A stretch of DNA of 20,877 bases from a virus. The translations under genes and the position numbers were made by a program. The notes under the pieces were generated by a model that saw only the letters and a list, made by a program, of their open reading frames with translations, did no database searches and was not told the origin of the DNA. Shown one piece after another: positions 3,116-20,877 of the stretch. Location: positions 1-20,877 of IMG/VR virus record IMGVR_UViG_3300007735_000458, one strand, 5' to 3'. Within the stretch, counting starts at the first letter, position 1; every line of letters begins with the position of its first letter.

Positions 3116-3601
3116 CTATTCGAGTTCCAATACTTTTCTCACATCAATCTCTTGACTTCCATTTAATCCAATTATGGCTTCTCTTAGCTTCTCACGTCCA
3201 TCTCCGTGAAACTTCGTCATTAAGAATGGCTCTGACTGGCTACCTTCCAACCACTCAACCGGCTCACCATTGGGATCAATAACTAAATCATCAACGTAAT
3301 TGAATTTATCCAATATTGCATCAACTGACGATTCTCTTACCGATTCAACTATTTCACTAGGCACATTGGCTTTGACCCAATCAATAAACTTTTTATCCGA
3401 CTTAACAACCCACTTGAACTTTGGTTTAGTGGTTGTTATGTAGGCAACTACCTCATCACCCAATTCAGCCTTTACTCGATCAGCTCCGAGGCTATCCATC
3501 TCGGCTTTTAATTCAGCTCGTAACTCATCTTTCAAGCGTTTTGCTTGGTCTGCCAGCAGGCTAATCGCCGCTAGTTTTAGACTTAGATCCTTGATTGTCA
3601 T
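3116..3601 (-). CDS. Conserved phage protein of unknown function, 161 aa (left)
   Basis: I do not recognise a family with certainty. The first 45 residues are rich in Leu, Ala, Lys and Glu (LAAISLLADQAKRLKDELRA) and should form a helix or coiled coil. A compact mixed domain follows with conserved segments TTTKPKFKWVVKSDKKF, ESVRESS, LDKFNYVDD and WLEGSQSEPFLMTKFHGDG. The right unit encodes a homolog of 157 aa, about three quarters identical, with variation concentrated at the C-terminus. The Gam-like helical start and its place in a recombination-type cassette would allow a DNA-end-binding role, but that is a guess. Its start overlaps the upstream small gene by 41 bases. Confidence 0.8.
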   Translation of the reverse strand: MTIKDLSLKLAAISLLADQAKRLKDELRAELKAEMDSLGADRVKAELGDEVVAYITTTKPKFKWVVKSDKKFIDWVKANVPSEIVESVRESSVDAILDKFNYVDDLVIDPNGEPVEWLEGSQSEPFLMTKFHGDGREKLREAIIGLNGSQEIDVRKVLELE

Positions 3602-3761
3602 TTCGCTCCCTTTTCTTTGCTCTATTTAATCTGATTTCTAACGATGCCAGATTTACACCCATATCTCGGGCGATGAACTCTTTATCGAAGCCCCACTCCA
3701 GCATTTGCCGGATATATGCAATGGAGTGGCCGCTTCGCCTTACTTTGTCTTGCTCGCCCAT
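3561..3761 (-). CDS. Small HTH-like protein, 66 aa (left)
   Basis: This basic protein has a probable helix-turn-helix: YIRQMLEWGFDKEFIARDMG followed by VNLASLEIRLNRAKKR, where the second half looks like a recognition helix. The right copy (64 aa) keeps YIRQ, EWGFDKEFIA, the NL.SLE.RL pattern and the basic tail. A DNA-binding role, perhaps in regulation or as a small-terminase substitute, is inferred from shape only. The ATG at 3761 overlaps the 3' end of the FmdB-like gene by 22 bases, and its own 3' end overlaps the 161-aa gene by 41 bases. Confidence 0.75.
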   Translation of the reverse strand: MGEQDKVRRSGHSIAYIRQMLEWGFDKEFIARDMGVNLASLEIRLNRAKKRERNDNQGSKSKTSGD

Positions 3762-5373: not shown

Positions 5374-5506
5374 TGATACTCGCTCTCCCTCGTTTATAGC
5401 CTTCGTTAAAAGCTTTGGCTTTGATGCTGATATATGTCCGGTAAATGATCCAGACACTTGAGCAATATGCGGCCCAGATAATTGCATCAGAATATCTATT
5501 CCACAT
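5351..5506 (-). CDS. Single-pass membrane peptide, 51 aa (left)
   Basis: A short gene starting at ATG 5506 (MWNRYSDAIIWAAY). Residues 8-29 form a hydrophobic, Trp/Tyr-rich helix, followed by a strongly basic tail KAKAFNEGYKRGR and the end EIVK. The right unit has a 54-aa homolog with a different membrane helix but the same tail, in the same place, so this is a genuine gene although it is very short. The ATG overlaps the end of the 66-aa gene and its stop overlaps the DUF6378-like gene by 23 bases. Topology is probably N-out/C-in by the positive-inside rule. Function is unknown. Confidence 0.8.
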   Translation of the reverse strand: MWNRYSDAIIWAAYCSSVWIIYRTYISIKAKAFNEGYKRGRASINVREIVK

Positions 5507-5696
5507 CTGCACTCACCCCAAATCTATCTAGCCAATATGCGGATATTTCTTCGCGACTTAAACGACCGCGAGCAGACTTGCGTCCAAGCGACTCAATTGC
5601 GTATCTACGGATTATCTGGCCTTTAACGTAATTAGCGCCATCAGACCAAGCACCCGAAGTCGAATCAAATCGAATTACTTTCGGATTATTTATCAC
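5496..5696 (-). CDS. First early gene, 66-aa basic protein (left)
   Basis: The first gene of the early cassette of the left unit. The GTG start at 5696 is preceded by GGGAGA at a suitable distance. Sequence features shared with the right copy are VIRFDS..GAW at the N-terminus, the IIRR segment, then RGRLS-EISAYWLD-GVSADV. The last half is basic and helical and could bind DNA or RNA, with a possible HTH around RLSREEISAYWLDRFG. I do not recognise a family. Directly upstream lies a hairpin whose 3' arm touches its ribosome binding site. Confidence 0.8.
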   Translation of the reverse strand: MINNPKVIRFDSTSGAWSDGANYVKGQIIRRYAIESLGRKSARGRLSREEISAYWLDRFGVSADVE

Positions 5697-5703
5697 TTAC
5701 TCT

Positions 5704-5736
5704 CCCTTCTAAACCCTAGAAAATGGATTTAGTGGG
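5704..5736 (-). promoter_or_regulatory. Conserved hairpin at the head of the early cassette (left)
   Basis: On the minus strand CTAAATCC pairs with GGGTTTAG (one G-T pair) around the loop ATTTTCTA, with flanking CCC and GGG. The GGG of the 3' arm begins the ribosome binding site of the 66-aa gene. The right unit has an analogous hairpin at 20846..20877 made of partly different bases. It could control translation of the first early gene or be a protein or DNA-processing site. Confidence 0.55.
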
Positions 5737-5765
5737 ATAAATGTATTTAGATAAATCTATTTAGA
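5720..5765. repeat. Short direct repeats upstream of the early cassette
   Basis: Two adjacent 14-base copies, TAAATGTATTTAGA (5738-5751) and TAAATCTATTTAGA (5752-5765), differ at one base. A weaker third copy (11 of 14) lies at 5720-5733. They fill most of the only sizeable intergenic gap and overlap the last codon of the nuclease gene. Such tandem short repeats fit an operator or iteron-like protein-binding site (inference). Confidence 0.6.
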
Positions 5766-5768
5766 CAA
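5740..5768 (-). promoter_or_regulatory. Candidate early promoter (left unit)
   Basis: On the minus strand TTGTCT (5768-5763) is followed after 17 bases by TACATT (5745-5740), an acceptable -35/-10 pair. It points at the 66-aa early gene and lies within the direct repeats, so a repeat-binding protein could control it. Motif match only. Confidence 0.35.
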
Positions 5769-6144
5769 ATAGGAGCTCGGCGTGGCGAATATCTAAGAAG
5801 GCGCATAGTTTTTCAATAGTGCCTCTATTGGCAAAATCGGTCTTGTCCGGCAATGGCCTTAAAACCCATTCTACGGCCTCTATAGCCCCTAAATCGAACT
5901 GATAGACCCCTTGTGGGGTTGAGTTGATATAAAGCGTCCTAGCGCCCGTTCTAGCCCTTATATCGGCCAAATAGTCCCACTTCCGCTTCTCAATCAGCAA
6001 TGTCGGGTAATGGGTGCGGCGACACTTGAGTTCGATGTATGCGTCGTGGGTGATGCCGTCGTGCTTGTCGGTCGGTGAAACTGGCGTCAGGTCTGGATAA
6101 ACGGCCTTTAACGCCTCGAATAATTCGACCTCGCGAAGATAAAT
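5761..6144 (-). CDS. PD-(D/E)XK-type nuclease (putative)
   Basis: The reading frame encodes about 127 aa. A conserved block HDGITHDAYIELKCR contains an acidic residue and the E-L-K of a PD-(D/E)XK nuclease core, followed by LLIEKRKWDYLAD and YINSTPQGVYQFDL. A role in DNA processing or resolution is inferred. The start is unclear. The frame is open only back to 6150 (after a TGA) with no ATG, GTG or TTG before the conserved part; ATT at 6144 is one possibility. An ATG at 6154, overlapping the end of the upstream gene, is in another frame and would join perfectly if the TTT at 6141-6143 had one base fewer. The ATG-only reading from about 6000 would lose the catalytic motif. Last gene of the right unit. 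Confidence 0.7.
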   Translation of the reverse strand: MYLREVELFEALKAVYPDLTPVSPTDKHDGITHDAYIELKCRRTHYPTLLIEKRKWDYLADIRARTGARTLYINSTPQGVYQFDLGAIEAVEWVLRPLPDKTDFANRGTIEKLCAFLDIRHAELLFV

Positions 6145-6401
6145 TAGTCGTCATCCTCATCGAAATCATCAAGCGGATTCTTGATGGGGTCTTTCGGATC
6201 AACTATCCAATCGGGATATGAGCTGCGATCCATTGCGAAAGCAAGAGCTGAACCTTCGTCCATACCGGCTCGACGGCAAGCGTCATACACTTCTTTGGCA
6301 GCAATAGCCCAAAAATCCAGTTTTGTAAGGATTGGCTCTTTCGTCGTCTTCCGACGTTTAGCCACCTTCTTCACCGGCTTCTTAGCGCGCTTTGTTGCCA
6401 C
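6144..6401 (-). CDS. Basic/acidic small protein, 85 aa
   Basis: Residues 1-22 are strongly basic (Lys/Arg/Ala/Thr-rich), the middle is helical (KLDFWAIAAKEVYDACRRAG...ALAFAMD), then SYPDWIVDP, and the last ten residues are nearly all Asp/Glu. I recognise the general type from actinophage genomes, where it follows the lysis genes, but know no function. Its ATG at 6401 overlaps the preceding membrane-protein gene by 20 bases. The charge split suggests nucleic-acid or protein binding (inference). Confidence 0.75.
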   Translation of the reverse strand: MATKRAKKPVKKVAKRRKTTKEPILTKLDFWAIAAKEVYDACRRAGMDEGSALAFAMDRSSYPDWIVDPKDPIKNPLDDFDEDDD

Positions 6402-17446: not shown

Positions 17447-17751
17447 TATTCTCCAGAGTCGGCCAGATAATGAACGGACGACCCATTTTCAGGGAAAATC
17501 TTCCCAATGGGGGTCGTGGGTCTGGATGCGCGCTCAAAAAAGGTGGGGGTCATACGATCGCGCTTAGAACTATTGCATTGAGAGCAGCAAGCCACCATAT
17601 TAGAAGCTTCATCAGTTCCACCCTTGCTGATAGGTATTAAGTGATCAACTGTATTGGCTTCTTGACCGCAGTAATGGCAAGTATTGTAATCGCGTTGCAA
17701 CACTTGCAATCTAGTTCGCTGGTAATAGGTTGAGTTATATCTTCTACTCAA
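17446..17751 (-). CDS. HNH endonuclease, right unit
   Basis: 101 aa with TTG start at 17751, overlapping the transglycosylase stop (TTGA). CHYCG, VDHLIPISKGG and CSQCN give the HNH core with two zinc CxxC pairs. The tail RPTTPIGKIFPENGS is shared with the left copy, then the last residues diverge. Probable partner of the terminase at packaging ends (inference from neighbours). Confidence 0.93.
   Translation of the reverse strand: MSRRYNSTYYQRTRLQVLQRDYNTCHYCGQEANTVDHLIPISKGGTDEASNMVACCSQCNSSKRDRMTPTFFERASRPTTPIGKIFPENGSSVHYLADSGE
17482..17511 (-). promoter_or_regulatory. Nested palindrome just upstream of terL (right copy)
   Basis: CCCATT (17482-17487) pairs with AATGGG (17506-17511), and inside it GGGAA (17492-17496) pairs with TTCCC (17501-17505). 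It lies within a 41-base run (17483-17523) identical to 2405-2445 in the left unit. Candidate packaging or control site. Confidence 0.45.
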
Positions 17752-20513: not shown

Positions 20514-20649
20514 TTGACCTGCCTCTCTTATAGCCTTCATTAAAAGCTTTGGCTTTGGCTGAAGTAAATAGACTCCAGATATAAAGGCCGATAAATGGAA
20601 CTCCAATGATGATTCCTACTACTGCTTCATCAGATAAATTAGGCAACAT
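20485..20649 (-). CDS. Single-pass membrane peptide, 54 aa (right)
   Basis: Starts MLPNLSDEAVVGIII; residues about 9-28 form a hydrophobic helix, followed by KAKAFNEGYKRGR and ending EIVK. The tail is nearly identical to the left peptide while the helix differs, so selection acts on the cytoplasmic tail. The ATG at 20649 overlaps the 66-aa gene end and the stop overlaps the DUF gene by 29 bases. Confidence 0.8.
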   Translation of the reverse strand: MLPNLSDEAVVGIIIGVPFIGLYIWSLFTSAKAKAFNEGYKRGRSSVRYTEIVK

Positions 20650-20839
20650 CTGCGCTCACCCCATATTTATCTAACCAATATGCTGATATTTCAGCCTTAG
20701 ATAAACGGCCTCTCAGCTGCTTCTTGCCCATCCGCTCTTTAGCGAATCGCCTGATTATTGATCCCTTAACCCAATTTGTCTCATCAGTCCAAGCCCCTGC
20801 TTGAGAATCAAATCGAATAAGAGCTACTTTATTTACCAT
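20639..20839 (-). CDS. First early gene, 66-aa basic protein (right)
   Basis: ATG at 20839 preceded by GGGAGC. Conserved with the left copy in LIRFDS..GAWTD, IIRRFA, and RGRLSKAEISAYWLD-YGVSADV. Basic and helical; probable nucleic-acid binder of unknown family. It leads the early cassette of the right unit. Confidence 0.8.
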   Translation of the reverse strand: MVNKVALIRFDSQAGAWTDETNWVKGSIIRRFAKERMGKKQLRGRLSKAEISAYWLDKYGVSADVA

Positions 20840-20845
20840 TTTGCT

Positions 20846-20877
20846 CCCGTTCTGTAATCCCTAAATGGATTAACGGG
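20846..20877 (-). promoter_or_regulatory. Conserved hairpin at the head of the early cassette (right)
   Basis: CCCGTT (20846-20851) pairs with AACGGG (20872-20877) and AATCC (20856-20860) with GGATT (20867-20871), with a four-base bulge and loop CTAAAT on the plus strand. The 20846-20848 arm is part of the ribosome binding site of the 66-aa gene. The window ends at the outer base of this hairpin. Confidence 0.55.

Follow-up and report, generated by a model that had tools for sequence, protein, structure and literature searches.

A conserved RNA hairpin at an operon start of small freshwater phages and its possible role in access to the Shine-Dalgarno sequence

The window analysed here comprises 20,877 nt of viral DNA (IMG/VR record IMGVR_UViG_3300007735_000458) and carries, at the front of an operon, a stem-loop whose 3' arm includes part of the Shine-Dalgarno (SD) sequence. 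We are highly confident that this is a hairpin of the sense-strand RNA under selection. Its function is addressed more tentatively: the leading proposal, still short of probable, is a start-site switch in which the hairpin, at the 5' end of a presumed early operon message, controls access to the SD.

The hairpins of two phages

Stem-loops were found on the minus strand at 5704..5736 and 20846..20877, in each case just before a gene for a 66-aa protein, as described in an earlier note on this DNA. The first hairpin (class A; identified by sequence, folding and covariation) consists of an outer 5' arm CCC (5734-5736), an inner 5' arm CTAAATCC (5725-5732), a loop (5717-5724), an inner 3' arm GGGTTTAG (5709-5716) followed by AA, and an outer 3' arm GGG (5704-5706), all on the minus strand. 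The SD, GGGAG (5702..5706, minus strand), contributes its GGG to the stem as the outer 3' arm. The second hairpin (class B; identified by sequence and folding) has the stem CCCGTTAATCC/GGATTA..ACGGG. The stems thus differ yet pair (CCC.CTAAATCC/GGGTTTAG..GGG in class A), and in both phages the GGG of GGGAG forms the last part of the 3' arm, so that the ribosome binding site touches this arm as the note had stated. GGGAG is the SD of other genes in the class A phage, too. RNA folding gave -14.2 kcal/mol (z -2.8) for 5702-5737 and -12.7 kcal/mol (z -3.6) for 20844-20877. Of the gene starts inspected in the window, none had a lower leader energy than these two; the third in rank reached -10.1.

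The two hairpin-bearing units of the earlier note were recovered, not as halves of one genome but as parts of two different 15-kb phages. One complete phage covers 2442-17508 (15,067 nt); a contig of 15,067 nt ends exactly at 2442 and was 100% identical over the 13,255 nt compared. On either side, the window continues with sequence resembling the ends of another phage, the joins lying at conserved cos motifs. The probable cos site CCACGACCCCC (2431-2441 and 17509-17519, minus strand) was located by contig ends and would form an 11-nt cohesive end: more than 20 contigs stop at one identical base before CCACGACCCCC, between the HNH and terminase genes, and complete contigs of 15-16 kb open directly after it, at ATTGGG / ATTGGGAAGATTTTCC. 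The window seems to represent an insertion of one phage at the cos motif that it shares with another, whose ends flank it; this would be an assembly join or a mixed concatemer. Other contigs, among them one of 26 kb (L083/L122), likewise contain a pair of units that are spaced about 15.7 kb and differ in their leaders.

An inverted repeat in an intergenic gap between operons might itself be a packaging (cos) site or an intrinsic terminator. Both are very improbable here. The genome ends map between HNH and terminase, about 3.3 kb away from the leader hairpin; the stem is followed by an SD and a start codon instead of a U-tract, and it is absent from the terminator list. The DNA-processing site suggested earlier is disfavoured by the distance to the packaging end and by a wobble bias that favours RNA.

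Occurrence and stem classes

The two 66-aa proteins, as well as leader patterns, served as queries against viral contigs and retrieved several hundred loci. Homologs without pairing at this place had been named as the case against the hairpin; every one of 178 distinct regions following the nuclease-like gene, the direct upstream neighbour of the leader, carried the leader (174 detected by pattern, 4 by eye). In two loci (L010 and L021), about 70 nt of extra sequence lie between the nuclease stop codon and the leader, which is retained. An alignment-based search added no diversity of leaders.

The patterns yielded 67 distinct hairpins. The 65 distinct hairpins shorter than 42 nt had a mean z of about -3.2, and 62 were significant at p<0.05 relative to dinucleotide shuffles. 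An unplanned control came from matches of the pattern AATACATTTA-N-CC...GGGAG in unrelated DNA; upon folding, the related leaders ranged from -11.7 to -17.0 and the unrelated matches from -1.1 to -14.9 (p 3e-5). Of 64 hairpins, 60 carried CCC or a variant of it with a single C->T change.

At least seven stem classes (A-G) were distinguished, some with unrelated sequence at the same place. Class A has the stem CTAAATCC/GGRTTTRG, class B AATCC/GGATT within CCCGT/ACGGG, and class D GTCGGA/TCCGAC; class C is a longer form. Classes E, F and G are stems around the common loop GC[GA]AAYGWC. This loop is shared by differing stems (L043, L246, L331, L358), and contact with a protein or the ribosome is possible. 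Rfam covariance models, applied at gathering score, matched neither the window nor any of six related loci. The leader hairpin is regarded as a conserved cis-regulatory RNA absent from Rfam.

Covariation and strand bias

The covariation analysis over more homologs that had been proposed earlier revealed compensatory changes in class A and in classes E/F/G. For class A, 97.6% of the alignment cells were paired, compared with at most 60% for slid partners, and both sides had changed at two pairs (C-G to G-C and A-U to U-A). For classes E/F/G, 87.7% of the cells were paired, with both sides changed at 6 of 13 pairs (10 cells). The covariation score was matched by 2 of 500 shuffles for class A and by none of 500 for E/F/G; since the sequences are related, these shuffle counts are not probabilities. 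Class B was nearly invariant, showed no covariation and is uninformative. The outer CCC:GGG pairs do not covary because the SD fixes the GGG; changes in the outer CCC are mostly C->T, with pairing retained.

Across the three alignments, 43 G-U cells but only 1 A-C cell were counted on the sense strand. Counted by pair position, the ratio was 11 to 1 (sign test p=0.006, the positions being not fully independent). A DNA cruciform or an RNA of the opposite strand would lack such a bias, which argues for RNA and not DNA as the selected molecule. Selection on structure, as claimed in the earlier note, is supported by the covariation and by the classes of unrelated sequence at the same place.

Promoter and palindromic boxes

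The leaders carry a promoter-like pattern, TTG-N17-TAnATT, laid over palindromic TAAATNNATTTA boxes. In the class A phage, the predicted -35 hexamer TTGTCT (5763..5768) is separated by 17 nt from the predicted -10 hexamer TACATT (5740..5745), and transcription is predicted to start at the A at 5733, just inside CCC (all minus strand). TTG stands exactly 17 nt before TAnATT in 89 of 103 distinct leaders and at 18 nt in 3 more, and the spacing is kept even where the nuclease reading frame differs. The 7th nucleotide after TAnATT, the expected start just past CCC, is a purine in 101 of these 103 leaders. From this start, the inner stem would begin at +1 to +3 in almost every class. A generic promoter scan with a 9-of-12 cutoff omitted the leader promoter because its hexamers score below that cutoff; the case for a promoter is made from conserved spacing in the sequences and stays a prediction. 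Class C leaders have no clear promoter, which counts against the start-site switch.

Three TAAATNNATTTA boxes occur in the leader, with hardly any elsewhere in the window. Box 1, TAAATAGATTTA (5752..5763, minus strand), is a candidate operator and overlaps the nuclease stop codon. Box 2, TAAATACATTTA (5738..5749, minus strand), contains the TAnATT with the -10 hexamer. Box 3, TAAATCCATTTT (5720..5731, minus strand), covers part of the 5' arm and loop of the hairpin and is absent from classes D-G. A candidate binder of the boxes, judged from a structural model, is the 66-aa HTH-like protein encoded at 3564-3761 (minus strand), which is conserved across the phage group. Its three-helix model resembles DNA-binding domains weakly, with no E below 0.6.

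The concentration of boxes in the leader, and the overlap of box 3 with the 5' arm and loop in classes A-C, would also be expected if the leader were a DNA element only, i.e., operator or replication-origin repeats with the hairpin as a by-product of palindromic boxes. Such a reading is given little credence. Classes D-G have the hairpin without box 3, which argues against a by-product of palindromes; the stem pairs box 3 with non-box sequence, and the wobbles are G-U on the sense strand. A replication origin at the leader was rejected because the GC skew has no turning point there. An operator, also suggested earlier, is probably present as separate promoter boxes, which overlap the hairpin only in part.

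First genes of the operon

Classes A, B and F each precede several different, unrelated first genes. In loci with an additional gene inserted, the leader remains foremost and the 66-aa gene comes second; one first gene was found behind different loop classes. In the window, the 66-aa gene is the first gene after the leader (5496..5696, minus strand, GTG start; in the second phage 20639..20839, minus strand, ATG start, 64% identical). It had no match in cultured phages, and comparison of the model of its product (mean pLDDT 92) with the PDB gave nothing significant. The link to the 66-aa protein drawn in the earlier note was not borne out, as the same hairpins stand before several unrelated first genes, and this protein was rejected as a dedicated binder since other first genes follow the same leader. 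With first genes being interchangeable, autoregulation by the 66-aa protein is disfavoured, and a generic role is indicated for the hairpin at the operon start, to which it belongs.

Access to the Shine-Dalgarno sequence

In the proposed start-site switch, a sigma-70-type promoter with palindromic operator boxes would start RNA at the purine inside the 5' arm, so that the outer CCC would stay untranscribed. The RNA from this promoter would have the inner stem-loop at its 5' end and, behind it, an accessible GGGAG. Read-through RNA from the upstream, presumably late genes would include CCC; the full hairpin would form and hide the SD, and the presumed early genes would not be translated from this RNA. 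No terminator-like site was detected on the same strand from the nuclease gene to the leader, and the genes are codirectional; late read-through is therefore likely.

The two RNAs were compared by folding of 62 distinct leaders. The mean unpaired probability of the SD GGG was 0.59-0.66 in RNA from the predicted start and 0.10 in RNA from 80 nt upstream; the promoter's own RNA was more open than read-through RNA in 55-60 of the 62 leaders. Changing CCC to AAA in silico raised openness of the read-through RNA from 0.10 to 0.26-0.31 only; CCC is thus not sufficient to account for the predicted switch. Among the class B leaders, some had the SD partly re-masked by the downstream coding sequence (0.31 unpaired).

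Translational control, one of the roles considered in the earlier note, is plausible on these grounds and is the leading reading; folding and promoter layout suggest the mechanism. Its fuller, temporal form is possible but doubtful: the start would divide the hairpin, the SD would be open in early-promoter RNA and closed in late read-through RNA, and the whole stem would be an exchangeable cassette, with at least seven classes, common to this large phage group.

Start-site-dependent masking of the SD has precedents in T4 (e, I-TevI, segB) and in Aeh1 mobE (PMC3014915, PMC2988022); T4 soc and 49 belong to this type, too. In T4 gene e and I-TevI, the SD is masked in early RNA, and late transcription begins within the arm (PMC3014915, PMC2988022); in I-TevI, an operator also lies over the promoter (PMC2988022). 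The leader resembles this type in its hairpin over the SD and in an RNA helix that takes in the SD, the GGG being predicted to pair when CCC is in the RNA; judged by the -35/-10 spacing and the conserved purine, its adjoining upstream promoter would also start in the 5' arm. It differs in that T4 hides late genes in early RNA, whereas early genes would here be hidden in late read-through, that the arm would lose no more than its outermost 3 nt, and that an unrelated phage group with several interchangeable stem classes is concerned. If the switch is real, the logic of T4 gene e would be used in the opposite temporal direction. It would provide a very economical late shut-off of early genes, suited to a genome in which all genes share one strand and the late operon is not separated from the early one by a terminator. 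The leader itself comes in dozens of natural compensatory variants, which make it easy to test structure against function.

SAS and ESAS elements were also compared. The SAS of cluster K mycobacteriophages is a conserved 13-bp sequence present in 11-19 copies per genome (PMC3203893). These repeats also come from actinophages and, as in the leader, have inverted repeats directly ahead of the SD. They were rejected as a match: the 13-bp sequence GGGATAGGAGCCC was not found conserved in many copies, and the leader has the SD GGGAG, occurs once per genome and varies in its stem letters.

Alternatively, the hairpin might be a regulated mask on the early message, with transcription starting upstream of CCC and a phage or host factor opening or locking the stem. 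CCC-bearing RNA pairs the SD GGG almost fully in the representative leaders folded (one only partly), and the common loop of classes E/F/G could be a binding site. This is nevertheless unlikely, because the fixed distance from -10 to the purine favours a start inside the arm, and the occurrence of the same gene after different loops and of different genes after the same class leaves no dedicated pair.

A 5'-terminal mRNA stabiliser, in which stem-loop and strong SD slow 5'-end-dependent decay without masking, is a possibility that we rank just below the start-site switch. Precedents are ompA of E. coli, aprE of B. subtilis and the SP82 stabiliser (PMC7509114, PMC3997798), the last in a phage early RNA as proposed here. 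With the predicted start, the leader would likewise begin with a 5'-terminal stem, at +1 to +3, and continue with a purine-rich SD; any stem sequence apparently serves, and interchangeable first genes indicate a generic function. Stabilising alone leaves unexplained the conserved CCC, which would lie outside the transcript and is in register with GGG across unrelated stems. For one B. subtilis mRNA, lifetime fell when a stem stood too close to the SD (PMC7509114). Overall, a stabiliser is nearly as likely as the start-site switch, and both could hold together.

The position at the operon start and the common loop of classes E/F/G would also suit an antitermination signal, i.e., a hairpin at the start of the early transcript that modifies RNA polymerase, presumably in the manner of put or nut sites. 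This is quite improbable: the leader is a single short stem overlapping the SD, no boxA-type element or second stem was noticed in a non-systematic look, and the loop varies in classes A-D.

The phage group and the upstream nuclease gene

The owners of the leader form a large, very common, uncultured group of small freshwater actinophages, for which no close cultured relative was found. An actinobacterial host is suggested by two sequence features, an actinophage-like terminase and a nuclease common to Nanopelagicales phages. The terminase had no relatives in bacterial genomes, and the box pattern gave scattered matches in unrelated bacterial genomes only; thus, neither a prophage nor a host locus came to light. 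Two phages of 'Ca. Planktophila' LanE-43, E7 and F5 (PMC10202952; OX376640, OX376641), have a nuclease that shares about 44% identity with the nuclease encoded upstream of the leader. Their genomes are 39 kb in size, the nuclease starts with ATG, and no such leader follows its gene.

In the window, the nuclease-like gene (5761..6146, minus strand) has an apparent ATT start. This start (approximately 6144-6146, minus strand) overlaps the stop codon of the previous gene; across loci, the overlap reads TAATT or TAATC. Among the starts tabulated from 185 distinct copies, the apparent start at this place was ATT or ATC, with ATA once and no ATG, GTG or TTG. The gene is a candidate for a conserved non-AUG start.
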